64,000 nt of DNA from Bugula neritina (lineage: Eukaryota > Bryozoa > Gymnolaemata > Cheilostomatida > Bugulidae): assembly GCA_964035545.1 (NCBI GenBank), contig OZ037765.1:32005504-32069503 (forward strand). The letters run 5' to 3'. Below the pieces are notes generated by a model. The model saw only the letters and a list, made by a program, of their open reading frames with translations, made no database searches and was not told where the DNA came from. Below, in pieces: positions 1 to 37,546 of this stretch (positions within the stretch are counted from its first letter, which is position 1; every line of letters starts with the position of its first letter). A program made the translations under genes and the position numbers.

Positions 1-481
1 TGTGAGGGGCTTGTAAGAGACTGTTCCCATTCAATGTTTATTTTATTTTTCATTCAGCCAAGCTACTACTTACTCTCACAACTTTATTATATTATAAAAT
101 TGTTAAAACTGAATACTTCAAATCTGTCTGTTAGCAGAAATATATGTAACTATTTGAATAGATATTAATGCAGCTGAACCATGAAAATTTAGTCGTATGG
201 TTCACTATCTTTAAGCTACTCAAACCAACTTGATTTATTAAGTTAGTTTAACAAAAAGGTTATGATTTACATTTCTATTAGGCCAGTGCATTATGTATAC
301 AAACCCTAATTTAAGAAGACAGGTAAATTAAAATTTTAGTGTATATGTACATATATTGACAAAATAAAACATCTTAAATAAAATAACAAAATAGAAACAC
401 TGCCTTTCGATTTATTGAATCTTGAACTACACTAAATCTAATAATGTTTGAGAAATTCAGTGGAATTTTTACACAAACATT

Positions 482-1356
482 TCAGGCAAGAGGGTTTACT
501 GTATCATGACATAACATGTGCTCTCTAAGTTGAACTGAGTCTGTAAAATAAACTTGGCAATATCTACATGGCCATAGCTGGTTGATGCCAGAGTCTTGGA
601 GTTGATGTAGGGCCACAGGCTCAACTGGATGGGCAGCTGTCAGTATAGAATAACCTTGATATAGTGAAGAGTAGCTTTGTGATTTAGTTCCAAGAAAAAT
701 TGATATGTCATCACTTGATGACATTTTAAAGCATTCTCCATAATATGCTTTCACCAAAGGTAAATGAAACGTCAGATCTGTTTTTATGAAGTTCCTAATC
801 TGGGCTTGTCCAACTTGACTGTTACTGATATTGTCAAACTGAAACTGCCTGACAGATAAATCTAAAGGTTGATCTTTAGCTAAAACTGGTGTAGTCATTG
901 AGGCGGGAGGTGAAAAAGTCAGACCTCCAGAAGAATTCATTAGGTTTTCTTGAGAAGTTGGGTTGCTGAATTTTGACAAACTGTTTTCTTTGCATTTCCT
1001 AATGTGTATTTTATGACACTTTTTCTAACAAATGTCTGAAGACAAGTTTCACACTGATACGGTTTCTCACCAGTATGCAGTCGGATGTGCTCATTGTAAC
1101 TGGTTCTTCGGAGGAAGCCCCTCAGGCAGAATCTGCAGGTGTAAGGACGATGATTTGAATGACCTTTCTTATGGCGATTCAAGTTTCCAATCATAGTGAA
1201 ACTAGCATTACATATTTCACATACAAACTTCTTCCCAGTTGTGATACTCTTTGGCTGTTGGTTGTCTGCTATGTTCTCACACATGTCTTCTGTACCAACC
1301 TTGTTCTCTTCGGACAAACTTGTACTCATCATTATATCTTCTAGTCTGTTAATCAT
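482..1356 (-). pseudogene. C2H2 zinc-finger paralog a, frameshifted
   Basis: Minus-strand copy of the local zinc-finger family. It opens at an ATG (MINRLED) and reads three N-terminal C2H2-type fingers. A run of five A residues (1020-1024, minus sense), where the intact paralogs have six, shifts the frame inside finger 3 and stops at 940. The old frame resumes in the other phase to 482 and still encodes the PLDLS motif and the fourth finger. A deletion near 465-482 also removes the start of the last half-finger and brings in a TGA. The same lesions occur in the copy at 11462-12336, so they predate the tandem duplication. A short protein with a broken third finger could still be made. Confidence 0.85.
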
Positions 1357-3590
1357 TGTAAGCACAGTTTCCACCTCTACTCATTCTGATATCCATACAC
1401 TGGAATGTGCACATCAGCAGTAACCTTTTGCTAGTAAGGAAAAATTCAGAATAACTCGTGCTCGCATGAATGATTTTGTTTATTCTACAAGCCAATAAAT
1501 AGCATTTACAGTTCTTGTAAAATTCAACCAATCAAATATTATCTTTTTCTTATAGGTTCAGCTTATATAACTAGCTATTTTGTACTTTCATGGTTTTATA
1601 TATATTTACATATTGCAGGTGCTCAAAGACAAAAAATTAAAGCCTCGAATCGATTTGACCTGCGTCAAAGACATGTATCTAACCATCCTATATTGGCTAA
1701 AGTTAACCAGTATTATTAGAATAATTATTTACAGTCTAGTCCATCAATTCTCATACTCACCAACAGAGTCTTTAATTACACAATTGCACTGGAAATATCT
1801 AGGCCGGTTACCCCACGCATCGCATCTAATAAAAATGTGTTGTAATATGGAGGTATTGTTATATGAAGTGTGTGTAGTATTTCAGCCGCATAGGACTAAT
1901 CAAAGCAAAAATTAGTTCACATAACAGTTACACAAATCATTTTACTAGAGTTTCTAACTATTATTGCTATAATCAGTTCCAATTCTCTTCGTTATCCCAT
2001 GGTATAAAATTAAATGTTTGTTTTTGTGTGTTACCATTCAGCAAAACATTTTTATCTGTGTTATATGTCAACTAGTGATACCACACTAACAAAATGATAT
2101 CAAGTTTCCAAATATGCAACTATTTTTTGGTTTTGAAGTGCAATGTCAGCTAGTGTCTCAATAAAATAAATTCACTGTCATGTATTACAATTTGTAGAAT
2201 TATAATTGAATTATTTGCAGTTATTATATGCAATCTCATTTATTAAATTGTTCAATTGAACTTTAAAGCTTGTCTCACTTGTAGAAGCTTTCAATATTTA
2301 CCTCATTTTGAACAGCATATCAAGTTTTAAACTTAATTATCTAATAACTAAAATATTTTACATTTATTCAAAAGGTCTCTAAATAGTTACAAATCTTACA
2401 TATCTGCCAAAATACGAAGCATCCACACAGCCGGTGATAAAATATTTTAGTAGATAATATAATATTTGCAAAAACACTATGCATTTTAACTATAACTTTT
2501 ATTTCTCACTATAACGCTATAGCTATTGTGGTCATTTATTTTGCTTAGATGTTTTAATTTGAATTTAATCATTTTGTAAGACTGTCTGTATAACTCCATG
2601 AATGCAAATAGATATTGTAAATATGGTCACCACGTTTCTCTTAGAATCCCATATTTACTGGTGAAGAGGCTATTAATAACTATTTATAGCCTTATATAAG
2701 TAATATAATAAGCATTGACTGCTCTGTCTGGTGTTGGTGTAGGCTACTCGTGATGCTAATGTCACATTTTATAGGAATATTTCCCTTCTGTTAACCCTTT
2801 CCTATCCAAGTTTAGGAGGATTTTTGACAGTTTTGTATTTCTTATAATTGATGGGTTGTCCTCGTTCAATTCCATTATGCATAATATTTATTATTTATAA
2901 TTCAAAACAACATCAAAGCAGGTTTCCGGCGGTGAACAAAATAACTCACAAGAAGATCTCAATACTGTGTGGTGATGATTTTAAATTATAATAAAAACTT
3001 TCAATTCCAGGTGGGAGTAGGCATAGTGGTGTGTATATTCATCATGAGTCAATGTTTAAGATAAAATATTGTGAATCAAAGCGCCCATTTCTCTAATTCG
3101 CATAATGCAAAGAAAATTTTTCATCGAAGAAGCTGTTTGACTGAATTTTACTTCGATGCAACTATAATTTCCATATGGCAAATGAAAAAACCCATTCGCA
3201 TAATGGGATAATAGAAATGTAGTGATAGTAGCAATTGCAAGATGATTGTATGTATTTAATAAATTTTAGCCCAATAAAATGCAGTTATATACAGTACAGG
3301 TTTATTATTGTGGTTAGACTTGAGTAATTATGCAAACATCAGCATTCACAGTTAGGTGTGAGATGCAAAAAGAATTTTCAATTAACTTGTCATTTTTATT
3401 TTACAGGCAAGTGATGGAGAAAACTCTCAAATACAGAAAAACCTTTATAAACTGTGTTGCACTCTTACCAATAGAGTAAAAAAGCTTTTTACATGAAGCA
3501 ATGCATTTAGAGTATGTAGAAAAGTCATATCTATATCTGCATGTAGCAGTAAAGCTTTGACTAGACTTTTATATCCAAAATTGTATCAGT
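1357..3590. other. Spacer between divergent zinc-finger copies
   Basis: No gene. Positions 1500-1900 are the inverted 5' flank of paralog a, a degraded version of the family promoter: the TTTGAC-N4-GTCAAA palindrome and CCAAT boxes remain, but the TATA box is degenerate. Positions 2770-3070 hold a repeat (cctatccaagtttaggagg onwards) that recurs near 13750, 18180, 24050, 34050, 36400 and 39130, always in plus orientation. The remainder is AT-rich without recognisable content. Confidence 0.7.
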
Positions 3591-3596
3591 ACCAAA

Positions 3597-3821
<225 letters not shown>

Positions 3822-4056
3822 CTGTCCACAGATTGAGATATTACGCTCTCATTTAATGCTCAGCAATGACATTAAATGATTGAGCACTCTCACCATGGTC
3901 ACAAACTCAAGCTGCTAGCATTTTGCAATGCTCGTGACTCCTAGGTGACCCCTAGAGTCACTTGAGCACTCTGGCTTGAGTTTACACACCTTTTAAATAT
4001 GCTTTAGTAAAACTATAAGTTTTACTATTGCGAAGGTGTGGGCCATGGTACTCTGT

Positions 4057-4103
4057 TCTGTGCTGATGAGGGGACAAATCCCGAAACAGCTGCTGTCCAC
4101 AGA
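4057..4103 (+). ncRNA. Type I hammerhead ribozyme 1
   Basis: Core CTGATGA at 4063-4069 and GAAA at 4083-4086. Stem II pairs 4070-4073 with 4079-4082 (GGGG/TCCC, one wobble) around loop ACAAA. Stem III pairs 4086-4089 with 4093-4096 (ACAG/CTGT) around a 3-nt loop. The cleavage nucleotide is C4097, preceded by U16.1. Open stem I pairs 4057-4062 with 4098-4103 (TCTGTG/CACAGA, 6 Watson-Crick pairs). All universally conserved core positions are present. Confidence 0.93.
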
Positions 4104-4327
4104 TTGAGATATTACGCTCTCATTTAATGCTCAGCAATGACATTAAATGATTGAGCACTCTCACCATGGTCACAAACTCAAGCTGCTAGCATTTTGCAAT
4201 GCTCGTGACTCCTAGGTGACCCCTAGAGTCACTTGAGCACTCTGGCTTGAGTTTACACACCTTTTAAATATGCTTTAGTAAAACTATAAGTTTTACTATT
4301 GCGAAGGTGTGGGCCATGGTACTCTGT

Positions 4328-4374
4328 TCTGTGCTGATGAGGGGACAAATCCCGAAACAGCTGCTGTCCACAGA
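4328..4374 (+). ncRNA. Type I hammerhead ribozyme 2
   Basis: Identical to the ribozyme 271 bp upstream: core CTGATGA at 4334-4340, predicted self-cleavage between 4368 and 4369. It lies between two full monomers, so cleavage here and at the neighbouring sites would free one complete 271-nt unit. Confidence 0.93.
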
Positions 4375-4598
4375 TTGAGATATTACGCTCTCATTTAATG
4401 CTCAGCAATGACATTAAATGATTGAGCACTCTCACCATGGTCACAAACTCAAGCTGCTAGCATTTTGCAATGCTCGTGACTCCTAGGTGACCCCTAGAGT
4501 CACTTGAGCACTCTGGCTTGAGTTTACACACCTTTTAAATATGCTTTAGTAAAACTATAAGTTTTACTATTGCGAAGGTGTGGGCCATGGTACTCTGT

Positions 4599-4645
4599 TC
4601 TGTGCTGATGAGGGGACAAATCCCGAAACAGCTGCTGTCCACAGA
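4599..4645 (+). ncRNA. Type I hammerhead ribozyme 3
   Basis: Third identical copy: core CTGATGA at 4605-4611, predicted cleavage between 4639 and 4640. Its stem I 3' strand is supplied by the 13-nt stub that ends the array before the TA tract resumes, so the ribozyme is complete although it terminates the array. Confidence 0.92.
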
Positions 4646-4647
4646 TT

Positions 4648-4904
<257 letters not shown>

Positions 4905-4978
4905 GATTTTATTGTTATATGGTGGTCATATTTTTTGTTATCATAAATGCAACACAAATATCAATGTTTTGTAAATAA

Positions 4979-5340
4979 TTGGAACAGATAAAATTTTGAA
5001 ATGGTAAAAAATTATGCCAATATACAAATAATAATAGGGAAGAAAACTCGAACTATTTGAAGGTTAAGATTTTCAATATCCAGAAACTCTTGTAAAAACG
5101 ATTTGTGCAATCATTATGTGAACTAATTGTTCTTTTGATAAGATGCATGTGGCTTAAATATGATACACATATCCTTATATAAAATAAAATTTCATATTTT
5201 TTATTACTATGAAACACAATGCGTAGGGTGGCGAGCCTATATATTTCCGGTACAGTTCAGTAATTAAAGACTTCGTTGGTAAGTATATGAGAATTGGTAC
5301 ACTAGTCACTAGACTGTAAATAATTATTCTAATAATACTG
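4979..5340. other. 5' flank of zinc-finger gene b
   Basis: Non-coding AT-rich flank that recurs at 15176 and 19861 and, from about 5038, at 22660. It precedes the promoter block of each plus-strand paralog. Confidence 0.6.
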
Positions 5341-5345
5341 GTTAA

Positions 5346-5548
5346 CTTTAGCCAATAGGATGGTTAGATACATGTCTTTGACGCAGGTCAAACCGATTCG
5401 AGGCTTTAATTTTTTATCTCTGCGTAACTTCAACGTTTTTGTTCATAATATCGAACCTTGCTAGTACGAAATAACTAGTTATATAAGCTGAACTTAGAAA
5501 AAAGGAAGCTAGTATTTGATTGGTTGAACCTAACCAAAGATATAAAAG
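5346..5548 (+). promoter_or_regulatory. Promoter of zinc-finger gene b
   Basis: A CCAAT box at 5352-5356 is followed by the palindrome TTTGAC-GCAG-GTCAAA (5387-5402), an inverted CCAAT (ATTGG, 5519-5523) and a TATA box TATAAAAG at 5541-5548. The predicted transcription start is near 5570, about 170 bp before the ATG. The same order of elements recurs upstream of the other plus-strand copies; the palindrome is kept in nearly all promoter fragments of the region. Confidence 0.65.
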
Positions 5549-5737
5549 ATGAGAAAAGTACTTTAACGCAGCAGGATCTACTTTTTGCTAAATATTGGAA
5601 ACAAAATCATTCATGCGAACATGAGGTTTTTCCTCACTAACAAAAGGCTAATGCAGATGTGCAGATTCTAGCGTATATGGAAAGCGGAATGAGTAGCCAT
5701 AAAAACAGGACTTACATTGATCAACAAACTAGAAGAT

Positions 5738-6655
5738 ATGATGATGAGTACAAGTTTGTCTGAAGAGAACAAGGTTGGTACAAAAGACATGTGTGAGAAC
5801 ATAGCAGACAACCAACAGCCATGTGCAAAGAGTATTACAGCTGGGAAGAAGTTTGTATGTGAAATATGTAATGCTAGTTTCACTATGATAGGAAACTTGA
5901 ATCGCCATAAGAAAGGTCATTCAAATCATCGTCCTTACACCTGCAGATTCTGCCTGAGGGGCTTCCTCCGAAGATCCAGTTACAATGAGCACATCCGACT
6001 GCATACTGGTGAGAAACCGTATCAGTGTGAAACTTGTCTTCAGACATTTGTTAGAAAAAAGTGTCATAAGATACACATTAGAAAATGCAAAGAAAACAAT
6101 TTGTCAAAATTCAGCAACCCAACTTCTCAAGAGAACCTGATGAATTCTTTTAGAGGTCTCATTGTTTCACCTTCTGCCTCAATGACTAGACCAGTTTTAG
6201 CTGAAGATCAACCATTAGATTTATCAGTCAGGCAAGTTCAGTTTGACAATAACACCAACAGTCAAGTTGGACAAGCCCAGATTAAGAAGTTCATAAAAGA
6301 GGGTTCCCAGTTTAATTTACCTATCACGACAGCATATGGAGAGCACTTAAAAATGTTACCAATATACGGCAAATCAACTTTGTCTTCTATGAAAAATGAA
6401 TCACAAAGCTACTCTTCAATACATCAAAGTGATTCTAGGCTGACAGCTGCCCATCCAATTGAGCCTGTGGCCCTACTTCAACTCTATGACTCCGGCATCA
6501 ACCAGCTATGGCCATGTAGATATTGCCAAGTTTATTTTACAGACTCAGTTCAACTTAGAGAGCACATGTTATGTCATGATACAGTAAATCCTTTGACCTG
6601 CACTTTATGCCCAAAAGTGTGTAAGAATCCTACTGAATTCCTAACGCATCCCTAG
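5738..6655 (+). CDS. C2H2 zinc-finger protein b with CtBP-type PLDLS motif (intact)
   Basis: Single-exon gene of 305 codons from the first ATG of an ATG-ATG-ATG run; upstream in-frame codons use TTG where the minus-strand paralogs have ATG. Fingers 1 and 2 (5855-5989) are CX2CX12HX3H, joined to finger 3 by a TGEKPY linker; finger 3 ends H-X3-C. A middle region holds QPLDLSVRQ, matching the PxDLS consensus that recruits the corepressor CtBP. Finger 4 (WPCRYCQVYF...) is complete, and a final half-finger (CTLC...H) runs to the stop. The likely role is a nuclear DNA-binding repressor; this is inferred from motifs. The first three fingers resemble OVO-type fingers in spacing (LNRH, HS, RFC.RGF), but the family was not established. 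The gene sits in a cluster of paralogs and has an apparently complete promoter. Confidence 0.82.
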   Translation: MMMSTSLSEENKVGTKDMCENIADNQQPCAKSITAGKKFVCEICNASFTMIGNLNRHKKGHSNHRPYTCRFCLRGFLRRSSYNEHIRLHTGEKPYQCETCLQTFVRKKCHKIHIRKCKENNLSKFSNPTSQENLMNSFRGLIVSPSASMTRPVLAEDQPLDLSVRQVQFDNNTNSQVGQAQIKKFIKEGSQFNLPITTAYGEHLKMLPIYGKSTLSSMKNESQSYSSIHQSDSRLTAAHPIEPVALLQLYDSGINQLWPCRYCQVYFTDSVQLREHMLCHDTVNPLTCTLCPKVCKNPTEFLTHP

Positions 6656-9600
6656 CTTTAGAATAGTTGCTCAAGATCAAACAGTTTCAAGTATGATATT
6701 CTTAATGTTTAATTTTATTTTTAATGTATATTTTTATTAAATACATACCCATATGTCTAAATATCCTAACTAACCTGCTTTTTCTTCTTAACTGGAGTTT
6801 ATATAAATATTGCACAAGCCTAATATATTACTAATAGTACAATATGTCATCTTCACTAATTTCAGTCAGTCAAGTTGGTTTGATTTACATAAATTAATGA
6901 AGCATAAATCAGAGGCATCATTTCTTTCAGATATAGTTATTCATAAATCTATAAATATTTTAAGTGTTTTGGTTTTATTGATTTTATAACAAAAAAGTTG
7001 TAAGCATAGTTTAGCTGAGTAAGTTTTGTTTATAAAACAAACATTGAATGAGAGCAGTTGGGGGTTTTGTTTACACTCCTTTCACCATAAGCTTGGAGTA
7101 GCCTATTAATAGAGTTTTTAAGTTAGTCTTTATTTGACTATTTAAAGTCTAAACTTATGACTAAAACTGCTTTTTTTTATCGTTTCTCTGCATCATGACG
7201 TGGGCTTTATTATTAGATGAATTCAAGCTTTTGAGCTGAGCATGCAACATGTCTCTTGGGTCTTTACTTTCATTTCTATTCATTGGCATGACACATGTTC
7301 ATTCCAAAAGTGCACATATTATATTTGAATCATCGAGAAAATTAATTTTTTTGACGTAGCCTAATATAGATTTTATACTTACTAGATTAGGAGTTTTTTT
7401 ATAATTGATGGCTATGATCTTGGATTTTTCGAAATGCTCAAGGGTGACAGGTCCACACTTATCTGAAAGTATTTACTTAAACTCTCAAGCAGGATAGGTA
7501 ATCAGGAAAGAAAAAGGCGTCGTCCGGGATTTTGAGCCTTGCCCTAAGTTCGGCCAGACTATAACATAGTACTTGTTAGTTCCTGTGCCAAGTCTAGTAT
7601 ATTATGTGGTATTTCCTGATGTCAATCACATTTGTCGAATGTGTGATTGGGTGACCTATGAATATTTGTATGTTGCAGTACTGTATAAGTATCATATTAA
7701 AATATTATACATTGTGCATTATCAATTATCATATAATCGGCATAATGTAATGTTATGTTGTAATCAACAAGAAGCTTTATTAAAAGCTATACTTTCATTG
7801 TGGCCTATAAATGATTTGAATTTCAGTTTCTTCTGCTTTTATACACTCCCTCATCACTGAAAACAAATAATTATATATTTTGTTGAGAAAAATATGCCAT
7901 TGACAACTACTTATGATTTTAGATAAAGATTATGACAATAACCGTATAGCTCCTTCGTATTAACTCCCCCCCCCCCCTCAAATGCGTGAGGAGTGATGAG
8001 CTATCTGGCAATAAATTGTAATTATCATTTATTATAATAAAAATTTTCAGATCCGGGTGTGTGTAGGCGTAGTGGCATGTATATTTATCATGAGTCAACA
8101 TACAGGTCTTAAAAAAGTATATCCTGGATCATGCAGTGCAACACACCAAGTCCTTGTAGCTCTAGCTGTATCTGTTGGCCTGTAAGATGCACAAATATTG
8201 ATAAAAGTTTCAAATTTTAAAATCTAGTTCAGTAAAATGCAGCTATATTGTGTAGTTTCATTATTTTATAAGTTAGACCTATAAAGTACCCTACACAAAA
8301 GTTATCTTGCATATAGCTATATGTGATAAGTAAAAAATTTGTTTCAACTTGTCATGACATTTTTTCTGTACTTAAATTTTACTGAAACATATACATGTCT
8401 GAGTCTGGCCAGGCATTGCATCAGATCAAGATCACATGCATTTAATTTACAGGTAAGAGATGAAAACTTCCATCATATGAAACAATGCAAGTAATATCTA
8501 TCTGCATGTAGTTCTAAAGCTCAGACTAGACTTCTTGACAATAAGTGTAGCAGATCAAAACTTTTATCATTAAGTCAGAAATTACTTAAGCCAAGTTGTA
8601 TAGTGAAATTTTTACTAGTTTGCTTATAGCTATGTCAGCTATATATTGAGAGCCTACAAAGAAAAGCTTTCTACATAGGACAGTCAGTGCTAACTAAAAG
8701 ACCGATCTGGTACTTGGCAATAGTTGGTGCTAGTGGACTAGTTGTAATTTTAAGAAAGCAAAAATAATTGTTTAGAATGTTTTTTTTCTGACGTGGAATA
8801 CAATTGTTTATTTAAGTTTATGCTGAAATTATGCAAGTTTTGAATTGCAATTGTAGTCTTGACACGTCAAGCGGTGTCAAATGGTGTCAAGCAGTGTCAA
8901 CCAGTGTAATGTTAGAATAATAATACAATAAAGGACATCAGTGAAGGTTTTTTGCCCAAATCACAGCATATATAGCTCATTACACAAGTACTTGCTATTC
9001 AGCTTTTATGTTTTATATGGTATCAACTTTGCTATAACAGGTGGTTAATATGACAGATTTATTTTTATGGCCATGCAATCTTGCCAATAATTTCAATGTC
9101 TTCATGTAATAAAGAAGTTTAGTCAGTTGGTACTTTGCTGCATACTTAGAAGAATTGAGATCCCAACACATTGGTTTTATACTGTGTTAAGATATCTTCA
9201 ATACTGGAACCCTAAAAGAAAACATTACTATTACCCTCATCTTGAAATTGTTTTGCTTTAAGTGCGCGTGCACAACTTCATGGCATCTGTCGCAAACTTT
9301 GTATGTTGAAGAATGAAACACTATTGAGATTATTATACGTCTATAACAGCAATGACATTCCAGAACAAGACTGCACAATATTAATAGAAAAAAGACTGCT
9401 CATTTATATATTAGAATGCATGCGGCATAAGACAACTTCAAGTAAGAGTAACCAGTAAAGTTGTAAAATAATATAAATTGTTTAATGTATCTCAGTTCAC
9501 TAACACCACATAACTTAATCTTAAAACATTATGCAGCATCCTAAACTGTATCACAGATTTTCTCACACTTTATACTAAACACCAAAATTGATAATATTTT

Positions 9601-10863: not shown

Positions 10864-11461
10864 CTTACTGTAGGAATAAAAACTGACAGCTAGGTAAACT
10901 GTCAGACTCAGTTTTAGTCATTAGTGCACATAATCACATAACGACTAAAGCAAAAGTTCTATTGCAATAAGCATATGATGTGTGAGGGGCTTGTAAGAGA
11001 CTGTTCCCATTCAATGTTTATTTTATTTTTCATTCAGCCAAGCTACTACTTACTCTCACAACTTTATTATATTATAAAATTGTTAAAACTGAATACTTCA
11101 AATCTGTCTGTTAGCAGAAATATATGTAACTATTTGAATAGAAATTAATGCAGCTGAACCATGAAAATTTAGTCGTATGGTTCACTATCTTTAAGCTACT
11201 CAAACCAACTTGATTTATTAAGTTAGTTTAACAAAAAGGTTATGATTTATATTTCTATTAGGCCAGTGCATTATGTATACAAACCCTAATTTAAGAAGAC
11301 AGGTAAATTAAAATTTTAGTGTATATGTACATATATTGACAAAATAAAACATCTTAAATAAAATAACAAAATAGAAACACTGCCTTTCGATTTATTGCGT
11401 CTTGAACTACACTAAATCTAATAATGTTTGAGAAATTCAGTGGAATTTTTACACAAACATT

Positions 11462-12336
11462 TCAGGCAAGAGGGTTTACTGTATCATGACATAACATGTG
11501 CTCTCTAAGTTGAACTGAGTCTGTAAAATAAACTTGGCAATATCTACATGGCCATAGCTGGTTGATGCCAGAGTCTTGGAGTTGATGTAGGGCCACAGGC
11601 TCAACTGGATGGGCAGCTGTCAGTATAGAATAACCTTGATATAGTGAAGAGCAGCTTTGTGATTTAGTTCCAAGAAAAATTGATATGTCATCACTTGATG
11701 ACATTTTAAAGCATTCTCCATAATATGCTTTCACCAAAGGTAAATGAAACGTCAGATCTGTTTTTATGAAGTTCCTAATCTGGGCTTGTCCAACTTGACT
11801 GTTACTGATATTGTCAAACTGAAACTGCCTGACAGATAAATCTAAAGGTTGATCTTTAGCTAAAACTGGTGTAGTCATTGAGGCGGGAGGTGAAAAAGTC
11901 AGACCTCCAGAAGAATTCATTAGGTTTTCTTGAGAAGTTGGGTTGCTGAATTTTGACAAACTGTTTTCTTTGCATTTCCTAATGTGTATTTTATGACACT
12001 TTTTCTAACAAATGTCTGAAGACAAGTTTCACACTGATACGGTTTCTCACCAGTATGCAGTCGGATGTGCTCATTGTAACTGGTTCTTCGGAGGAAGCCC
12101 CTCAGGCAGAATTTGCAGGTGTAAGGACGATGATTTGAATGACCTTTCTTATGACGATTCAAGTTTCCTATCATAGTGAAACTAGCATTACATATTTCAC
12201 ATACAAACTTCTTCCCAGTTGTGATACTCTTTGGCTGTTGGTTGTCTGCTATGTTCTCACACATGTCTTCTGTACCAACCTTGTTCTCTTCGGACAAACT
12301 TGTACTCATCATTATATCTTCTAGTCTGTTAATCAT
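11462..12336 (-). pseudogene. C2H2 zinc-finger paralog c, frameshifted
   Basis: Unit B counterpart of the pseudogene at 482-1356, differing by only a few bases. It shares the one-base deletion in the A run (12000-12004) that breaks finger 3 and the 3' deletion that removes the last half-finger. Both halves of the former protein remain readable in two phases, including PLDLSVRQ and finger 4. It has the upstream ATG. Confidence 0.85.
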
Positions 12337-14576
12337 TGTAAGCACAGTTTCCACCTCTACTCATTCTGATATCCATACACTGGAATGTGCACATCAGCAG
12401 TAACCTTTTGCTAGTAAGGAAAAATTCAGAATAACTCGTGCTCGCATGAATGATTTTGTTTATTCTACAAGCCAATAAATAGCATTTACAGTTCTTGTAA
12501 AATTCAACCAATCAAATATTATCTTTTTCTTATAGGTTCAGCTTATATAACTAGCTATTTTGTACTTCCATGGTTTTATATATATTTACATATTGCAGGT
12601 GCTCAAAGACAAAAAATTAAAGCTGCGAATCGATTTGACCTGCGTCAAAGACATGTATCTAACCATCCTATATTGGCTAAAGTTAACCAGTATTATTAGA
12701 ATAATTATTTACAGTCTAGTCCATCAATTCTCATACTCACCAACAGAGTCTTTAATTACACACTTGCACTGGAAATATCTAGGCCGGTTACCCCACGCAT
12801 CGTATCTAATAAAAATGTGTTGTAATATGGAGGTATTGTTATATGCAGTGTGTGTAGTATTTCAGCCGCATAGGACTAATCAAAGCAAAAATTAGTTCAC
12901 ATAACAGTTACACAAATCATTTTACTAGAGTTTCTAACTATTATTGCTATAATCAGTTCCAATTCTCTTCGTTATCCCATGGTATAAAATTAAATGTTTG
13001 TTTTTGTGTGTTACCATTCAGCAAAACATTTTTATCTGTGTTATATGTCAACTAGTGATACCACACTAACAAAATGATATCAAGTTTCCAAATATGCAAC
13101 TATTTTTTGGTTTTGAAGTGCAATGTCAGCTAGTGTCTCAATAAAATAAATTCACTGTCATGTATTACAATTTGTAGAATTATAATTGAATTATTTGCAG
13201 TTATTATATGCAATCTCATTTATTAAATTGTTCAATTGAACTTTAAAGCTTGTCTCACTTGTAGAAGCTTTCAATATTTACCTCATTTTGAACAGCATAT
13301 CAAGTTTTAAACTTAATTATCTAATAACTAAAATATTTTACATTTATTCAAAAGGTCTCTAAATAGTTACAAATCTTACATATCTGCCAAAATACGAAGC
13401 ATCCACACAGCCGGTGATAAAATATTTTAGTAGATAATATAATATTTGCAAAAACACTATGCATTTTAACTATAACTTTTATTTCTCACTATAACGCTAT
13501 AGCTATTGTGGTCATTTATTTTGCTTAGATGTTTTAATTTGAATTTAATCATTTTGTAAGACTGTCTGTATAACTCCATGAATGCAAATAGATATTGTAA
13601 ATATGGTCACCACGTTTCTCTTAGAATCCCATATTTACTGGTGAAGAGGCTATTAATAACTATTTATAGCCTTATATAAGTAATATAATAAGCATTGACT
13701 GCTCTGTCTGGTGTTGGTGTAGGCTACTCGTGATGCTAATGTCACATTTTATAGGAATATTTCCCTTCTGTTAACCCTTTCCTATCCAAGTTTAGGAGGA
13801 TTTTTGACAGTTTTGTATTTCTTATAATTGATGGGTTGTCCTCGTTCAATTCCATTATGCATAATATTTATTATTTATAATTCAAAACAACATCAAAGCA
13901 GGTTTCCGGCGGTGAACAAAATAACTCACAAGAAGATCTCAATACTGTGTGGTGATGATTTTAAATTATAATAAAAACTTTCAATTCCAGGTGGGAGTAG
14001 GCATAGTGGTGTGTATATTCATCATGAGTCAATGTTTAAGATAAAATATTGTGAATCAAAGCGCCCATTTCTCTAATTCGCATAATGCAAAGAAAATTTT
14101 TCATCGAAGAAGCTGTTTGACTGAATTTTACTTCGATGCAACTATAATTTCCATATGGCAAATGAAAAAACCCATTCGCATAATGCGATAATAGAAATGT
14201 AGTGATAGTAGCAATTGCAAGATGATTGTATGTATTTAATAAATTTTAGCCCAATAAAATGCAGTTATATACAGTACAGGTTTATTATTGTGGTTAGACT
14301 TGAGTAATTATGCAAACATCAGCATTCACAGTTAGGTGTGAGATGCAAAAAGAATTTTCAATTAACTTGTCATTTTTATTTTACAGGCAAGTGATGGAGA
14401 AAACTCTCAAATACAGAAAAACCTTTATAAACTGTGTTGCACTCTTACCAATAGAGTAAAAAAGCTTTTTACATGAAGCAATGCATTTAGAGTATGTAGA
14501 AAAGTCATATCTATATCTGCATGTAGCAGTAAAGCTTTGACTAGACTTTTATATCCAAAATTGTATCAGTACCAAA
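12337..14576. other. Spacer of unit B, no gene seen
   Basis: Nearly base-for-base copy of 1357-3596, including the degraded inverted promoter of the minus-strand pseudogene (about 12480-12880) and the plus-oriented repeat near 13750-14050. Confidence 0.7.
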
Positions 14577-15103
<527 letters not shown>

Positions 15104-15542
15104 TTTTATTGTTATATTGTGGTCATATTTTTTGTTATCATAAATGCAACACAAATATCAATGTTTTGTAAATAATTGGAACAGATAAAATTTTGAAATG
15201 GTAAAAAATTATGCCAATATACAAATAATAATAGGGAAGAAAACTCGAACTATTTGAAGGTTAAGATTTTCAATATCCAGAAACTCTTGTAAAAACGATT
15301 TGTGCAATCATTATGTGAACTAATTGTTCTTTTGATAAGATGCATGTGGCTTAAATATGATACACATATCCTTATATAAAATAAAATTTCATATTTTTTA
15401 TTACTATGAAACACAATGCGTAGGGTGGCGAGCCTATATATTTCCGGTACAGTTCAGTAATTAAAGACTTCGTTGGTAAGTATATGAGAATTGGTACACT
15501 AGTCACTAGACTGTAAATAATTATTCTAATAATACTGGTTAA

Positions 15543-15745
15543 CTTTAGCCAATAGGATGGTTAGATACATGTCTTTGACGCAGGTCAAACCGATTCGAGG
15601 CTTTAATTTTTTATCTCTGCGTAACTTCAACGTTTTTGTTCATAATATCGAACCTTGCTAGTACAAAATAACTAGTTATATAAGCTGAACTTAGAAAAAA
15701 GGAAGCTAGTATTTGATTGGTTGAACCTAACCAAAGATATAAAAG
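15543..15745 (+). promoter_or_regulatory. Promoter of zinc-finger gene d
   Basis: Copy of the gene b promoter: CCAAT at 15549-15553, palindrome TTTGAC-GCAG-GTCAAA at 15584-15599, inverted CCAAT near 15716 and TATAAAAG at 15738-15745. It differs from the gene b promoter by almost nothing. Confidence 0.63.
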
Positions 15746-15934
15746 ATGAGAAAAGTACTTTAACGCAGCAGGATCTACTTTTTGCTAAATATTGGAAACA
15801 AAATCATTCATGCGAGCATGAGGTTTTTCCTCACTAACAAAAGGCTAATGCAGATGTGCACATTCTAGCGTATATGGAAAGCGGAATGAGTAGCCATAAA
15901 AACAGGACTTACATTGATCAACAAACTAGAAGAT

Positions 15935-16852
15935 ATGATGATGAGTACAAGTTTGTCTGAAGAGAACAAGGTTGGTACAAAAGACATGTGTGAGAACATA
16001 GCAGACAACCAACAGCCATGTGCAAAGAGTATTACAGCTGGGAAGAAGTTTGTATGTGAAATATGTAATGCTAGTTTCACTATGATAGGAAACTTGAATC
16101 GCCATAAGAAAGGTCATTCAAATCATCATCCTTACACCTGCAGATTCTGCCTGAGGGGCTTCCTCCGAAGATCCAGTTACAATGAGCACATCCGACTGCA
16201 TACTGGTGAGAAACCGTATCAGTGTGAAACTTGTCTTCAGACATTTGTTAGAAAAAAGTGTCATAAGATACACATTAGAAAATGCAAAGAAAACAATTTG
16301 TCAAAATTCAGCAACCCAACTTCTCAAGAGAATCTGATGAATTCTTTTAGAGGTCTTATTGTTTCACCTTCTGCCTCAATGACTAGACCAGTTTTAGCTG
16401 AAGATCAACCATTAGATTTTTCAGTCAGGCAGTTTCAGTTTGACAATAACACAAACAGTCAAGTTGGACAAGCCCAGATTAAGAAGTTCATAAAAGAGGG
16501 TTCCCAGTTTTATTTACCTTTCACGACAGCATATGGAGAGCACTTAAAAATGTCACCAATAGAAGGCAAATCAACTTTGTCTTCTGTGGAAAATGAATCA
16601 CAAAGCTATTCTTCACTACATCAGAGTGATTCTAGGCTGACACCAGCCCATCCAATTGAGCCTGTGGCCCTACATCAACTCCATGACTCCGGCATCAACC
16701 AGCTATGGCCATGTAGATATTGCCAAGTTTATTTTTCTGACTCAGTCCAACTTAGAGAGCATATGTTATGTCATGATACAGTAAATCCTTTGACCTGCAC
16801 TTTATGTAGAAAAGTGTGTAAAATTTCTACTGAATTCCTAAAACATCCCTAG
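15935..16852 (+). CDS. C2H2 zinc-finger protein d (intact; PLDFS variant)
   Basis: 305-codon single-exon paralog of the gene at 5738. The three N-terminal fingers are the same except Arg to His in the linker after finger 1. From codon 126 on, about 30 nucleotide and 17 amino-acid differences separate the two genes, mostly amino-acid changing. The corepressor motif reads PLDFS instead of PLDLS, replacing the conserved leucine. Finger 4 is intact apart from Thr to Ser, and the protein ends in the same half-finger (CTLC...KHP). The likely role is a DNA-binding regulator whose CtBP contact may be weakened; that is inference. Confidence 0.8.
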   Translation: MMMSTSLSEENKVGTKDMCENIADNQQPCAKSITAGKKFVCEICNASFTMIGNLNRHKKGHSNHHPYTCRFCLRGFLRRSSYNEHIRLHTGEKPYQCETCLQTFVRKKCHKIHIRKCKENNLSKFSNPTSQENLMNSFRGLIVSPSASMTRPVLAEDQPLDFSVRQFQFDNNTNSQVGQAQIKKFIKEGSQFYLPFTTAYGEHLKMSPIEGKSTLSSVENESQSYSSLHQSDSRLTPAHPIEPVALHQLHDSGINQLWPCRYCQVYFSDSVQLREHMLCHDTVNPLTCTLCRKVCKISTEFLKHP

Positions 16853-19800
16853 CTTTAGAATAGTTCCTCAAGATCAAACATTTTCAGGTATAACATTCCT
16901 AATGTTTCATTTTATTTTTAATGTATATTTTATTAAATACATGCACATATGTCTAAATATCCTAACTAACCTGCCTTTTCTTCTCAACTGAAGTTTATAT
17001 AAATATCCCACAAGCCTGCTATATTACTACTACTACAAGATGTCTTCTACACTAACTTCAGTCAGTCAAGTTGGTTTGATTTACATAAATTAATGAAGCA
17101 TAAATCAGCTGCATCGCTTTTTTTCAGATATAGTTATATATATTTATAAATATTTTAAGTGTTTTAATTTTATTAATTTTATAACAAAAAAGTTGTAAGC
17201 ATAGTTTAGCTAAGTATAAGTGTTGTTTATAAAACAAACATTGAATGAGAGCATTTGGGGGCTTTGTTTACACTTCTTTCACCATAAACTTAGAGTAGCC
17301 TAATAGAGTTTTTAAGTTAGTCTTTATTTGACTATTTAAAGTCTAAACTTATGACTAAAACTGCTTTTTTTTATCGTTTCTCTGCATCATGACGTGGGCT
17401 TTATTATTAGATGAATTCAAGCTTTTGAGCTGAGCATGCAACATGTCTCTTGGGTCTTTACTTTCATTTCTATTCATTGGCATGACACATATGTTCATTC
17501 CAAAAGTGCACATATTATATTTGAATCATCGAGAAAATTAATTTTTTTGACGTAGCCTAATATAGATTTTATACTTACTAGATTAGGAGTTTTTTTATAA
17601 TTGATGGCTATGATCTTGGATTTTTCAAAATGCTCAAGGGTGACAGGTCCACACTTATCTGAAAGTATTTACTTAAACTCTCAAGCAAGATAGGTAATCA
17701 GGAAAGAAAAAGGCGTCGTCCGGGATTTTGAGCCTTGCCCTAAGTTCGGCCAGACTATAACATAGTACTTGTTAGTTCCTGTGCCAAGTCTAGTATATTA
17801 TGTGGTATTTCCTGATGTCAATCACATTTGTCGAATGTGTGATTGGGTGACCTATGAATATTTGTATGTTGCAGTACTGTATAAGTATCATATTAAAATA
17901 TTATACATTGTGCATTATCAATTATCATATAATCGTCATAATGTAATGTTATGTTGTAATCAACAAGAAGCTTCATTAAAAGCTATACTTTCATTGTGGC
18001 CTATAAATGATTTGAATTTCAGTTTCTTCTGCTTTTATACACTCCCTCATCACTTAAAACAAATAATTATATACTTTGTTGAAAGTGCATATAGAAAAAT
18101 ATGCAACTACTTATGATTTTAGATAAGGGTTATTACAATAACCATAGTTCCTTCGTATTAACTCCCCCCCCCCTCCCAATGCATAAAAGAAATTTTGACA
18201 GTTTTAAAGTTCTTATGATTAATGAGTAATTCTCCTTATTTAGTTCTATTATTATTTACAATTCAAAACACCACCAATAAAGCACATTTCTGGTAGTGAA
18301 TAAAATTACCAATAAGAAGATATTGATACTGCGTGGTGATGAGTTATCTGGCAATAAATTATAATTATAATTTATTATAATAAAAATTTTCAGATCCGGG
18401 TGTGTGTAGGCGTAGTGGTACGTATATTTATCCTGAGTCAACATACAGGTTTTAAAAAAGTATATCCTGGATCATGCAGTGCAACACACCAAGTCCTTGT
18501 AGCTCTAGCTGTATCTGTTGGCCTGTAAGATGTACAAATACTGATAATAGTTTCAAATTTTAAAATCTAGTTCAGTAAAACACAATTATATTGTGTAGCT
18601 TCATTATTTTATAAGTTAGACCTATAAACCCTATACAAAGTTATCGGGCATATGGCTTTATGTGATTTTTTCATTTTGTGATGAAATATTTTCTGTACTT
18701 AAATTTTACTAAAACATATGTCTGAGTCTAGCCAGGCATTGCATCAGATCAATAGCCTACTCATGTATTTAATTTACAGGTAAGAGATGAAAACTTCCAT
18801 CATATGAAACAATGCATCTAGAAAGTCATATCTATCTGTATGTAGTTCTAAAGCTCAGACTAGACTTTTTAACAATAAATGTAGCAGATCAAAAATTTTA
18901 TTATTTTATAAAAATTTTATCATTAAGTCAGAAATTACTAAAGCCAAGTTGTAGTAAAACTTGCTAAAACTTAACTTGTAAAACTTAGCTATCTTAATTA
19001 TATTGAGAATACCTATAAAGAAAAGCTTTCCACATAGGACAGTCAGTGCTAACTAAAAGATTGACCTGGCACTTGGCAATAGTTGGTGCTAGTGGACTAG
19101 TTGTAATTTTAGGAGAGCAAAAATAATTGTTTATGATGTTTCTTTTCTGATGTGGAATACAAATGTTTATATTTTTCATATTGTTTATTTAAGTTTATGC
19201 TGAAATTATGTAAGTTTTGAATTGCCATTGTAGTCTTGACATGTTAAATGATGTCAAGCAGTGTCAACCAGTGTAATGCTAGAATAATATTACAATAAAG
19301 GACATCAGTGTGGATTTTTTTCTCAAATTAGAGCCTATAGTTCACTCGAAAAGTATTTGTTATTCATGCAGCTCTTATGTTTTATATGGTATCAACTTTG
19401 CTATAACGGGTGGTTAATATGACAAGTTTATTTTTATGTCCAATCTTGCTAATAATTTCAATGTCTTCATGTAATAAAGAAGTTTAGTCAGTTGGTACTT
19501 TGCTGCATACTTAGAAGAATTGAGATCCCAACACAGTGGTTTTATACTGTGTTAAGATATTTTCAATACTAGAACCCTAAAAGAAAACATTACCATTACC
19601 CTCATCTTGAAACTGTGTACACAACTTCATGACATCTGTCACAAATTTTGTATGTTGAAGAATGAAACACTATTGAGATTATTATACGTCTATAACAGCT
19701 ACAATATTTCAAACCAAGACTACACAATATTAATAGAAAAATATTTATATATTGGAATGCATGCGGCATAAGACAACTTCAAGTAAGAGTAACCGGTAAA

Positions 19801-20425: not shown

Positions 20426-20611
20426 TGAGAAAAGTACTTTAACGCAACAGGATCTATTTTTTGCTAAATATTGAAAACAAAATCATTCATGCGAGCATGA
20501 GGTTTTTCCTCGCTAACAAAAGGTTAGTGCGAATGTGCACATTCCAGTGCATGGATAGCAGAATGAGTAGCCATAAAAACAGGACTTACATTGATTAACA
20601 AACTAGAAGAT

Positions 20612-21505
20612 ATGATGATGAGTACAAGTTTGCCTGAAGAGAACAAGGTTGGTGCAGAAGACATGTGTGAGAACATAGCAGACAACCAACAGCCAAAGAG
20701 TACTACAGCTGAGAAGAAGTTTGTATGTGAAATATGTTATGCTAGTTTCACTATGATAGGAAACTTGAATCGCCATAAGAAAGGTCATTCAAATCATCGT
20801 CCTTACACCTGCAAATTCTGCCTGAGGGGCTTTCTCCGAAGAACCAGTTACAATGAGCACATCCGACTGCATACTGGTGAGAAACCGTATCAGTGTGAAA
20901 CTTGTCTTCAGACATTTGTTAGAAAAAAGTGTCATCAAATGCACATTAGGAAATGCAAAGAAAACAATTTGTCAAAAGCCAGGAACCCACCTTCTCAAGA
21001 GAACCTGATGAACTCTTCTGGAGGTATGACTTTTTTACCTTTGGCCTCAATGACTAGACCAGTTTTAGCTGAAGATAAACCATTAGATTTATCTGTCAGG
21101 CAGTTTCAGCTTGATAATATCTATGACAGTCAAGTTGAACAAGCCCAGATTAAGAAGTTCATAAAAACTGGTTTCCAGTTTTACTTACCTTTCACAACAG
21201 AATACGAAAAATGCTTAAAAATGTCACCAATAGACAATTCACCAACTTTAATTTCTAAGGAAAATGAATCACAAAGCTATTCTTCACCACATCAGAGTGA
21301 TTCTAGGCTGACACCAGCTTATCCAATTGAACCTGTGGCCCTTCATCAACTCCATGACTCCGGCATCAACCAGCTATGGCCATGTAGATATTGCCAAGTT
21401 TATTTTACTGACTCAGGTCAACTTAGAGAACACATGTTATGTCATTATACAGTAATTCCTGTGACCTGCACTTTATGTAGAAAAGGTGTGCAAAAATTCC
21501 ACTGA
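20612..21505 (+). CDS. C2H2 zinc-finger protein e, C-terminus frameshifted
   Basis: 297-codon single-exon paralog. Fingers 1-3 are intact; finger 1 has CEICYASF and finger 3 CHQMHIRKC. KPLDLSVRQ is retained. Finger 4 is complete, with Asp to Tyr just after its last His (CHYT) and Val to Gly inside. An extra G near 21486 (aaaaggtgtg where paralogs read aaaagtgtg) shifts the frame within the last half-finger, giving a GVQKFH tail. Because only the terminal half-finger is lost, the gene may still work. It is the most diverged of the three full-length copies and has a complete promoter. Confidence 0.75.
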   Translation: MMMSTSLPEENKVGAEDMCENIADNQQPKSTTAEKKFVCEICYASFTMIGNLNRHKKGHSNHRPYTCKFCLRGFLRRTSYNEHIRLHTGEKPYQCETCLQTFVRKKCHQMHIRKCKENNLSKARNPPSQENLMNSSGGMTFLPLASMTRPVLAEDKPLDLSVRQFQLDNIYDSQVEQAQIKKFIKTGFQFYLPFTTEYEKCLKMSPIDNSPTLISKENESQSYSSPHQSDSRLTPAYPIEPVALHQLHDSGINQLWPCRYCQVYFTDSGQLREHMLCHYTVIPVTCTLCRKGVQKFH

Positions 21506-29638: not shown

Positions 29639-32320
29639 TCAGGGTCCACAATAGAGTGCATAGCAAGGACTTCCAACTGTATAGGTGTGAACTTTGGATA
29701 CAGTGGATTTCTGGTCTGTAGACTTTTCCACTTCTTTTGATTGTCGTCCTTGGGCTTGGTGTGCTGGTGATGGTAGCAGAACATCAATTTTGCAACGAAT
29801 CTGTCTCCCATTCAGCAGTTCTCTGGGCGAGTATCCTCCTATCAAGGGTGTGCGTCGATAGTGCATCAGGAATTCAGTCAAAGCTAGATTTGGTGGTAAA
29901 TTAGATTTTTGTAGAGCCTGTTTAAATGATTGCACTAGTCTTTCGGCTGCTCCATTTGTGGCAGGGTGATAAGGGGCTCCAGATAGATGAACTATTCCAC
30001 GATCCCGGCACCAGCTTTGAAACTCTTCAGACTTGAATGTGCTTGCATTGTCGGATACAATTGTGTGTGGATATCCAAAGTGTGCAAAGTCTTGTTCTAG
30101 AAGTTCTGTAGTTCTCTTCGAAGATGTTGATGTAGTTGGATGTATGCAGGGATACTTTGAGTATGCATCCACAATTACTAGCCAGTTGCTTCCCAGAAAG
30201 TTGATTGCATGGTCGATGTGAATACGACTCCATGGCTTTTCTGGAATCATCCAAGGATGGAGAGGAGCTTTGGCTGGTTGATTCTGGTGCTCAGCGCAAG
30301 AGCTGCACTGTTTACAAGCATCCATGATGTCTGCGTCTATTCTTGGCCAATAAACAGCAGAACGTGCGAGTTGTTTCATCCGCTGTATGCCAAAGTGTCC
30401 TAGATGAAGAATCTGCAGAACTTGTGGCTGAAGGGTAAGCGGTATTACAACTCTTGAACCGTACAGCAAGCATCCATCTGAGATAGAGAGTGAGCCAGAC
30501 ACCTTCTTGAAACACTGTATGTTGTAAGCTGCACTATGAGTTTGGTCCTCATCTTCTGTGTTTGTCTCTTCTAGTGTTTTAGGCCATCCTTCTCTTGTAT
30601 AGCGAATTACTGTAGACAGAACGGGGTCTTTCAAGGTTTCTTTTAGAAGTACTCCTGGATCTGTTGGCTTCAATTGTTGAGAAATCAGTCGTATCGTGCA
30701 TATCGTGTCCATATCATTGCCATCTTCCTCCTCATCAAACTTGAAGTCTGGGCCAACTGGCAGACGACTAAGTGCATCTGCATTGCCATGTTTGCTGGTC
30801 GTGCGATACTCAATACTATAATCGTATTGACTCAGTTGCAGTGCCCATCTTGCTAGTCTGTTGGCTGCTAAAGCTGGCGTCTTCTTTGTAGGTCCAAATA
30901 GTGCCAATAATGGTCGGTGATCGGTAACCAAGATAAACCGCCGGCCGTAGAGGTATTGATGAAACTTCTTTAGTGCGAACACTATAGCTAGCGCCTCTTT
31001 TTGTATCTGTCCGTATTTCTTCTGAGTTCCAGTTAGTGTCTTTGAAACGTTGAAGATTGGTCTTTCTGATCTATCTGGGTATCGATGAAAAAGAACAGCT
31101 CCTATTCCCACTGATGAGGCATCACAGGAAATCCCGACTTCCAAGGTAGGGTCAAAATGAGCTAGTACTGTGTCCGAGCATAACATCTCTTTAAGTTTCT
31201 GAAAGCTTGACTCTTCTTCAGATCCCCACTTCCAAACAGCGTTCTTTTTAGTCAAATGGTGTAGCGGCTCTGTAACTGTAGATAAATTTGGTAAGAATTT
31301 GCTGTAGAATACTATCGATCCAAGAAATGACTTGAGTGATGATACATCTGTTGGTACCGGCATAGTTTTAACAGCGTCTGCCTTCTCTCCTTTAGCTATG
31401 CCATGGTTAGAGAGGAGATGTCCTAGGTAGTGGATTGCTGGCTTTGCAAATTCACACTTCTCTCTACGACATCTTAGTCCTTTCTCATCTAGGCGTTGTA
31501 GAAGTATTCTGAGGTTGTTTAAGTGTTCCTCTGCTGTTGATCCGCTGACCAGGATATCATCTAGATACACTGCCCCACCTTCTAGGTCGCTAGTGAGTTT
31601 CTCCATGATTTCTTGAAAGTACCCTGGTGCCGAACTAATGCCAAAAGGAAGTCTCATCTGAAGAAGTACTCCTCGATGGGTGTTCAGAGCCAGTCTTCTT
31701 TGACTTTCTGGAGCTAACAGAATCTGGTTGTAGGCATGCGCCAAGTCTATTTTGGTGAATCCATATCCTCCTCTGAGCTTCTGCATCAAGTCTCCTGGTA
31801 AGAGCATTGGTTGACGGTGAGTTTCAAGTTGGCTGTTGATGGACACCGAGTAATCTCCGCACACTCTGAGCTTTCTTTTCTGTTGATCTGGGAGTGCGGC
31901 TTTCCTGATTGGTACTACTGGTGTGCCATAGTTGTTGAACTGCACAGGTTTCCAGACTCCTCTTCTTATTCCTGCTTCATATTCTTGGACAATATCGTCT
32001 TGCATAGCGAATGGAACTGGTCTGGCTTTGCAGAATACTGGTTTCGAGTCAGGTTTGAATTCAATCTCCAACTCAAAATCTTTGAGACAACCCAGTTCTG
32101 GTTTGAAAAGATCTGGAAATTCTTCACAAACTTGTTCGCAAGCTTTCTGTAATGAGTAGTCAGGTTTAAGATCTTGGAAAACTGTGTTCACTGGATTACT
32201 TGTAGGTGATGATGTACATGGAATCTTCATCTTGTCGTCTATAGATATCTGTAGCCTTTGTATAGCGTCACGTCCTAGAAGATTTAGTTGTGGTATTTCT
32301 GTGACTACGAAGTTCAACAT
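29639..32320 (-). CDS. Retrotransposon Pol: protease end, reverse transcriptase, RNase H, integrase
   Basis: 893 codons. Protease remnant LLGRDA is at residues 14-19. Reverse transcriptase has the catalytic Asp at 192 and YLDD at 252-255. RNase H has Asp400, Glu442 and Asp467. The integrase zinc-binding region has His639, His642, Cys669 and Cys672. The integrase core triad is Asp703, Asp757 and Glu793, with the 35-residue spacing typical of DDE integrases. All key residues are present. A TGA at 29639-29641 stops the frame early, and the same phase continues to about 29318. Related elements are common in invertebrate genomes. Confidence 0.93.
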   Translation of the reverse strand: MLNFVVTEIPQLNLLGRDAIQRLQISIDDKMKIPCTSSPTSNPVNTVFQDLKPDYSLQKACEQVCEEFPDLFKPELGCLKDFELEIEFKPDSKPVFCKARPVPFAMQDDIVQEYEAGIRRGVWKPVQFNNYGTPVVPIRKAALPDQQKRKLRVCGDYSVSINSQLETHRQPMLLPGDLMQKLRGGYGFTKIDLAHAYNQILLAPESQRRLALNTHRGVLLQMRLPFGISSAPGYFQEIMEKLTSDLEGGAVYLDDILVSGSTAEEHLNNLRILLQRLDEKGLRCRREKCEFAKPAIHYLGHLLSNHGIAKGEKADAVKTMPVPTDVSSLKSFLGSIVFYSKFLPNLSTVTEPLHHLTKKNAVWKWGSEEESSFQKLKEMLCSDTVLAHFDPTLEVGISCDASSVGIGAVLFHRYPDRSERPIFNVSKTLTGTQKKYGQIQKEALAIVFALKKFHQYLYGRRFILVTDHRPLLALFGPTKKTPALAANRLARWALQLSQYDYSIEYRTTSKHGNADALSRLPVGPDFKFDEEEDGNDMDTICTIRLISQQLKPTDPGVLLKETLKDPVLSTVIRYTREGWPKTLEETNTEDEDQTHSAAYNIQCFKKVSGSLSISDGCLLYGSRVVIPLTLQPQVLQILHLGHFGIQRMKQLARSAVYWPRIDADIMDACKQCSSCAEHQNQPAKAPLHPWMIPEKPWSRIHIDHAINFLGSNWLVIVDAYSKYPCIHPTTSTSSKRTTELLEQDFAHFGYPHTIVSDNASTFKSEEFQSWCRDRGIVHLSGAPYHPATNGAAERLVQSFKQALQKSNLPPNLALTEFLMHYRRTPLIGGYSPRELLNGRQIRCKIDVLLPSPAHQAQGRQSKEVEKSTDQKSTVSKVHTYTVGSPCYALYCGP

Positions 32321-32362
32321 ATGTCCACTGGCTTTATCAGGAATGTTGGCAACTCGTTGGAA

Positions 32363-35743: not shown

Positions 35744-37066
<1,323 letters not shown>

Positions 37067-37546
37067 CTAAAGATGTCTCAGTAAATCAGTAGAATTTTTA
37101 CACATCTTTTCACATACAGTGCAGGTCAAAGGGTTTACTGTGTCATGGCATAACATGTGTTCTCTAAGTTGAACTGAGTCAGTGAAATAAACTTGGCAAT
37201 ATCTACATGGCCATAGCTGGTTGATGCCGGAGTCATGGAGTTGATGTAGGGCCACAGGCTCAATTGGATGGGCAGCTGTCAGCCTGGAATCACTCTGATG
37301 TAGTGAAGAGCAACTTTTCAATTTATTTTTTGTCCAAAGTAAAGCTGATGTGTCATCATTTGGTGAAATTTTAAAGCATCCTCCATAATATGCTGTCGCC
37401 AAAGGCAAATAAAAATTCAAACCAGTGTTAATGAATTTCTTAATCTGGGCTTGTTTAACTTGATTGTCTTTAATGTTATCAAACTGAACTTTCCTGACTG
37501 ATAAATCTAATGGTTTATTGTCAGCTAAAGACATGTATCTAACCAT
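37067..37546 (-). CDS. Recombinant zinc-finger paralog g: CtBP motif and C-terminal finger only
   Basis: A 159-codon open frame. The first residues (MVRYMSL) come from the promoter repeat (ATGGTTAGATACATGTCTTT), fused in frame to the middle of the zinc-finger gene at a short TTT/CTTT overlap. It keeps KPLDLSVRK, the whole C-terminal region, finger 4 (CRYCQVYFTDSVQLREH) and the terminal half-finger (CTVCEKMCKNS...HL), but has none of the three N-terminal fingers. The CCAAT boxes and flank upstream of the fusion remain, while the TATA box and palindrome were deleted. It could be a non-functional relic or a corepressor-binding fragment without main DNA contacts. The frame has no lesion. Confidence 0.6.
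   Translation of the reverse strand: MVRYMSLADNKPLDLSVRKVQFDNIKDNQVKQAQIKKFINTGLNFYLPLATAYYGGCFKISPNDDTSALLWTKNKLKSCSSLHQSDSRLTAAHPIEPVALHQLHDSGINQLWPCRYCQVYFTDSVQLREHMLCHDTVNPLTCTVCEKMCKNSTDLLRHL

Follow-up and report, generated by a model that had tools for sequence, protein, structure and literature searches.

It is established that animals harbour retrozymes with type I hammerheads, tandem units and circular RNA (PMC7229834), and the element type treated here is itself already known (Cervera and de la Pena 2020). Plant LTR retrozymes, as set out in the available part of PMC7761336, are hammerhead-flanked non-coding units with a circular RNA model. They carry LTRs together with a tRNA primer site and a polypurine tract, show target duplications of 4 bp, and have been proposed to use a Gypsy helper. 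The same part of that source, which comes from the group of PMC7229834, names Penelope-like elements (PLEs) as strong helper candidates for retrozymes and reports that retrozyme repeats hold no conserved motif revealing the helper. In both sources, as far as these parts go, the helper enzyme of animal retrozymes and the priming on the circle are open questions. Reverse transcription by a purified lizard PLE is reported to begin at an internal site beyond the hammerhead cut, at AT-rich DNA, and hammerhead mutants of this PLE still insert (PMC11167929).

The DNA analysed here is a stretch of 64,000 nt from the bryozoan Bugula neritina (contig OZ037765.1), called the window below. Tandem Repeats Finder placed an array of period 271 at 3822-4654, with 3.1 copies and 100% matches. 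The first-pass annotation, made from the letters alone, had described three identical tandem units of this period; the units and their number stood, and the array was corrected to three units plus 20 nt, with an end at about 4652-4654, where the exact end is ambiguous because AT comes next. The array and its parts are as follows.

3822..4654, + strand: retrozyme array of three identical 271-bp units plus 20 nt (Tandem Repeats Finder), missing from the duplicate segment
4057..4103, + strand: type I hammerhead 1, core from 4063, predicted cut 4097/4098 (descriptor scan)
4328..4374, + strand: type I hammerhead 2, core from 4334, predicted cut 4368/4369 (descriptor scan)
4599..4645, + strand: type I hammerhead 3, core from 4605, predicted cut 4639/4640 (descriptor scan)
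4640..4654, + strand: insertion 3' tail beyond the last cut, CACAGATTGAGAT followed by AT; most of the 92 arrays end alike; proposed start of reverse transcription

Each unit carries, in order, TCTGTG, CTGATGA, GGGG-ACAAA-TCCC, GAA, ACAG-CTG-CTGT, C and CACAGA, which form a stem I of 6 bp, a stem II of 4 bp (one G.U) and a stem III of 4 bp with a 3-nt loop, the cut being predicted after the C. As shown by a descriptor comprising the core, the three stems and the cleavage H, the window holds exactly three hammerheads on the + strand and none on the - strand. Across both strands of 100 dinucleotide-shuffled versions of the window the same descriptor gave no match, which bears out the claim of a complete hammerhead in each unit. 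The predicted cuts at 3826/3827, 4097/4098, 4368/4369 and 4639/4640 are 271 nt apart, so that the distance from cut to cut is one monomer, as had been proposed. No ribozyme core lies on the 5' side of the cut-site copy at 3822-3831, and the array thus contains three ribozymes, not four. A covariance search with Rfam, named beforehand as a check, was not passed: no hammerhead reached the gathering cut-off over the window, and none was found at E<=1 over 3700-4750. When 71 bases of the array were searched, RAGATH-1-hammerhead matched in the correct register at 15.2 bits (cut-off 56.3, E 1.2), and the sole other hammerhead match, Hammerhead_3 at 12.8 bits, was also below its cut-off. In the narrow Rfam sense the covariance score is therefore at background, while the descriptor still finds the hammerhead far above chance.

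The array resembles the metazoan non-LTR retrozymes, as described in the available part of PMC7229834, in its tandem units within the 170-400 nt range, its type I hammerhead, a GC content below 50% (43% in the unit), strongly self-paired RNA, the lack of LTRs and hundreds of copies; its 271 bp also fall among the tandem repeats of ~150-450 bp that characterise the group. The two differ in that target duplications of the described elements, when present, exceed 4 bp, whereas none was found here in the 20 arrays compared, some of them poor tests. A word search of PMC7229834 gave no mention of what is seen at these arrays, insertion into (TA)n from a fixed start. The direct LTRs around a central region that define plant LTR retrozymes were not found at the array, which consists of head-to-tail units only, and its hammerhead of type I, not type III, sets it apart from them.

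Empty sites had been suggested as a further check, and one was found within the window itself, in a segmental duplicate at 10981-18182. The features that define it, and the reading frames of the duplicated segments, are given below.

10981..14805, + strand: duplicate of 1-3825 (99.06% identity), left flank of the empty site with its (AT)n
14897..18182, + strand: duplicate of 4700-7985 (95.2% identity), right flank of the empty site
3598..3821, no strand: target microsatellite, an (AT)n tract on the 5' side of the array (Tandem Repeats Finder; segment duplicate)
4651..4700, no strand: (AT)n tract 3' of the array (Tandem Repeats Finder)
3567..3596, + strand: 30 nt matching the tail end of a PLE at 93%, directly 5' of the (AT)n
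482-1374 (- strand), 5717-6655 (+), 11462-12354 (-), 15914-16852 (+), 20591-21505 (+) and 37067-37546 (-): zinc-finger reading frames

The array sits between these flanks in the first segment copy only. In the second copy the (AT)n tract is uninterrupted and runs into ACATATACATATGTGTG, the same letters that lie beyond the (AT)n of the array in the first copy. Because the tract of the duplicate is uninterrupted, the simplest reading of the alignment is that the array entered a pre-existing (AT)n microsatellite after the segment had been duplicated. Since 3567-3596 matches a PLE tail, the tract from 3598 onwards may already hold a very short PLE copy. The segments belong to tandem and inverted duplications with zinc-finger reading frames at 1-23358 and 36777-37546. 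Elsewhere in the window, two long minus-strand frames at 29639-33487 resemble by eye gag and pol of a Gypsy-type LTR retrotransposon. Rfam gave a tRNA match at 41137-41208 (34.1 bits, cut-off 29) with no ARAGORN call, perhaps a tRNA-derived SINE.

At least 40 loci spread over nine contigs matched the unit (40 of 625 candidates scored). The ribozyme-core pattern occurred 367 times, against 35 for the reversed control, and the exact tail site CTGTCCACAGATTGA occurred 475 times in the 216-Mb genome, against once in the control. The genome-wide copy count thus revealed a dispersed family and not simply a local satellite. In IMG/VR, the exact 27-base core pattern had no match. The family comprises two subfamilies, A and B, which differ at 13 alignment columns, one of them in the ribozyme, where a G.U pair of stem II becomes G-C.

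The RNA of the monomer is predicted to be strongly self-paired, with a fold of -105.5 kcal/mol against a shuffled mean of -66.2 (z -8.3); the circular monomer folded at -99.6 kcal/mol. On its own, the ribozyme region is predicted to prefer an alternative fold over the hammerhead by 2.9 kcal/mol, and forcing the hammerhead within the circle is predicted to cost 3.7 kcal/mol. In the covariation test, no change on both sides was seen anywhere in the ribozyme stems. In the rod, 2 of 97 pairs had changed on both sides, a level matched by shuffles (mean 2.3); the sole measure above shuffles was the number of cells with both-sided change (25 vs 5.7), and these 25 stem from one A/B subfamily split. 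Covariation of the rod may thus lend weak support to the structure. After insertion, resident ribozymes decay as fast as the remaining element (24 of 2254 ribozyme sites against 97 of 10,735 other sites over 48 rows, p 0.47).

To describe the insert ends, we fetched 100 loci, chosen by best match or by intact ribozyme core (first places only); of their 110 arrays, 92 remained once loci fetched more than once had been dropped. At least two of them, L068 and L069, look like a single insertion that was copied (both flanks ~98.8% alike), so the 92 are not all independent. The 3' end ran into (TA)n in 84 of the 92 arrays, against a background of about 1%. In 78 of the 92, TA began 9, 11 or 12 nt past the predicted cut, a position rule to which 202 of 20,000 random window positions conformed. 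Among 65 tail sites on one contig, 45 were followed by (TA)4, 11 were unit junctions and 9 were neither. The 5' ends of the arrays were ragged and scattered. At two loci, the (TA)n bearing the retrozyme is flanked by short inverted repeats, as if TA tracts were palindrome centres.

The dispersed family, the signatures of retrotransposition, the strongly self-paired RNA and the empty site together support the initial reading of the array as a retrozyme. On balance, we favour a non-autonomous animal retrozyme that inserts into (TA)n microsatellites and relies on Penelope-like machinery for its copying. Self-cutting of the transcript at each hammerhead would release 271-nt RNAs, which would be closed into strongly self-paired circles. 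A presumed endonuclease would nick genomic (TA)n, insertion into pre-existing (AT)n being observed at the window locus, and the nicked TA end would pair with the AUAU about 12 nt past the ribozyme cut, at the fixed end observed in the arrays. This pairing would prime reverse transcription at GATTGAG/AUAU. The polymerase would then travel round the template, covering anything from less than one turn to several and often halting after one whole turn, and the outcome would be the arrays observed, whose 3' end is fixed and whose 5' ends are ragged. The likely helper is a resident PLE, since copies of one PLE family end by a like rule. Copying is thus proposed to proceed by target-primed reverse transcription at nicked (TA)n, probably from circular RNA.

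The lengths of the inserts bear on the form of the template. They peak at one whole turn, 271 nt, and 33 of all 84 arrays had whole-turn lengths. Among arrays not chosen for length, 14 of 44 fell within -5 to +14 nt of a multiple of 271, a window fixed after the data had been seen, where 3.2 were expected (p 1.9e-6); an earlier form of the test (16 of 51) took in five arrays chosen by best match, and 14 of 44 is the count without these. Nearly all of this signal lies in the one-turn peak. Inserts longer than 400 nt fitted multiples of 271 in 7 of 21 cases. Within the length-unselected set the figure was 2 of 6, and a period scan of this set did not single out 271. Two or more whole turns are thus weakly favoured, and because the higher multiples are weak, we lowered the weight given to whole-turn clustering and, slightly, the odds of a circular template.

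The weak higher multiples would also be in keeping with a template of linear, partly cut multimeric transcripts, on which the one-turn peak would arise by run-off near the cut 5' end or by TA microhomology at ATAT. We consider such a template unlikely, though it deserves to be weighed. The 5' starts of 35 of the 92 arrays lie within the first 13 nt of the unit, including near the cut, as run-off would have it. However, they are spread over positions 1-13, and 12 of the 35 are at position 12, not at the cut itself. One array, L061, is a mosaic in which a subfamily A unit is followed by a subfamily B unit; it reveals that template switching, uncut multimers or later recombination play a part as well. 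A linear template would further agree with the use of uncut RNA in vitro by the lizard PLE (PMC11167929), whereas the arrays of up to four whole turns (L078) speak against it.

The second part of the favoured reading, copying of the retrozyme by Penelope-like machinery, rests on the resident PLEs. The genome contains at least 150 matches to the PLE endonuclease (150 of 395 candidates scored). One PLE copy, L105, has (TA)n on both sides and one open frame with an RT YRDD motif and a CxC...CPLNGKCL...YIGL endonuclease region. The frame itself had no significant Pfam match; its homologues carry PF26215, the best of them PF01541 (GIY-YIG) together with PF26215, and a related 86-aa fragment was just above the Pfam GIY-YIG cut-off (22.8 vs 22.6 bits). 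L105 is 5'-truncated against TA, and its 3' end reads ...GTACCAA/ATATAT, 56 nt past the predicted cut of its PLE-type hammerhead. This hammerhead lies in the terminal repeat; its core was identified by eye, and no Rfam hammerhead matched it at E<=10. The PLE tail directly adjoins TA in L072 and in the window, and follows ATTT in L068 and L069. In three other copies (L025, L015 and L049) the PLE sequence runs on through the point of the terminus, which is therefore internal. Thus the PLE end, like GAG/ATAT/TACG of the retrozyme, corresponds to an internal AUAU past a ribozyme. The retrozyme and the L105 family share an end rule, both ending past a hammerhead at AUAU abutting (TA)n. The distances differ, the retrozyme ending 9-12 nt past its cut and L105 56 nt past its own, and the two tails have no common sequence except AT.

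Genome-wide, 151 PLE tail sites were found, and 64 distinct ones were followed by (TA)4; the patterns behind the two counts are nearly, not strictly, nested. Among the 100 tail sites listed of the 151, neighbour pairs less than 3 kb apart comprised 28 with tails outward and none with tails inward, and these back-to-back tail pairs give the L105 family the inverted or tandem terminal repeats of PLEs. In several such pairs, inspected by eye, (TA)4 follows just one of the two tails. Three loci, L102, L103 and L104 (about 696-2140), hold near-identical copies of a PLE endonuclease fragment with inverted ends, PLE-type hammerheads and TA tracts, and L103 and L104 also have a 5'-truncated retrozyme end in the adjoining TA tract. 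Other PLE groups reportedly target microsatellites, and (TA)n targeting by PLEs may already be in print.

The retrozyme resembles PAc of Anolis (PMC11167929) in that the insert ends past the hammerhead cut at an internal start, in an AT-rich target and in 5' truncation. Unlike PAc and the PLEs, it is non-coding and has a fuller hammerhead with a 4-bp looped stem III. The start of PAc is not homologous to the cut DNA (PMC11167929), whereas AUAU here matches (TA)n; this difference, and the insertion of hammerhead mutants, limit the analogy with the lizard PLE.

Mobilisation of the retrozyme by a LINE-type retrotransposon targeting (TA)n, not by a PLE, is unlikely, somewhat more so than a linear template; in that case ends and target would look alike. 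Target-primed reverse transcription by LINEs, too, typically yields one constant 3' end and ragged 5' ends, a pattern that the arrays fit. LINEs with restriction-like endonucleases target microsatellites, according to the available part of PMC4640811. What speaks for the PLE is the similar terminus of the resident family past a hammerhead and with (TA)n, in a comparison that covers PLE ends only.

The position of (TA)n relative to the arrays relates to whether it is the target or a 3' tail appended by the enzyme. By script, (TA)n was present on both sides of 64 of the 92 arrays, on the 3' side only of 20, on the 5' side only of 3 and on neither side of 5; the 20 include L012, with a masked flank, and L081, where 5' TA lies just beyond a piece of the element. 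An added tail would account for the excess of 3'-only arrays, but not for the 64 with (TA)n on both sides. The empty duplicate already holds (AT)n, and no target duplication beyond TA was found in 20 arrays (mean longest match 5.85, against 5.83 in mismatched pairs), of which at least 4 are poor tests: L012 is N-masked, L054 and L081 have the 5' junction inside the element, and the row of L063 is a 27-nt fragment. A target duplication within (TA)n itself would be invisible. The duplicate and this comparison disfavour an added tail, which we regard as highly improbable. A simple tandem satellite that carries a hammerhead by chance and was dispersed through DNA recombination would agree with the Rfam scores below cut-offs, but is hardly credible given the hundreds of short, scattered arrays that share one fixed end, the empty site and the absence of descriptor matches in 100 shuffles.

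New here are the empty site, the fixed 3' end bound to (TA)n, the one-turn length peak and the end rule common to the resident PLE. It is possible, at somewhat short of even chances, that animal retrozymes are parasites of PLEs that mimic the PLE tail, in which a nicked TA repeat pairs with AUAU outside the hammerhead of the circle and the PLE enzyme copies whole turns. If this is true, the insert ends alone would reveal both the helper and the circular template. The fixed start past the ribozyme, the (TA)n target and the one-turn peak form a sharp genomic signature, and since it resembles that of the resident PLE, helper and priming could be tested by a purified-protein assay like that used for the lizard PLE. 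The family also presents (TA)n tracts as landing sites in which several such elements gather.
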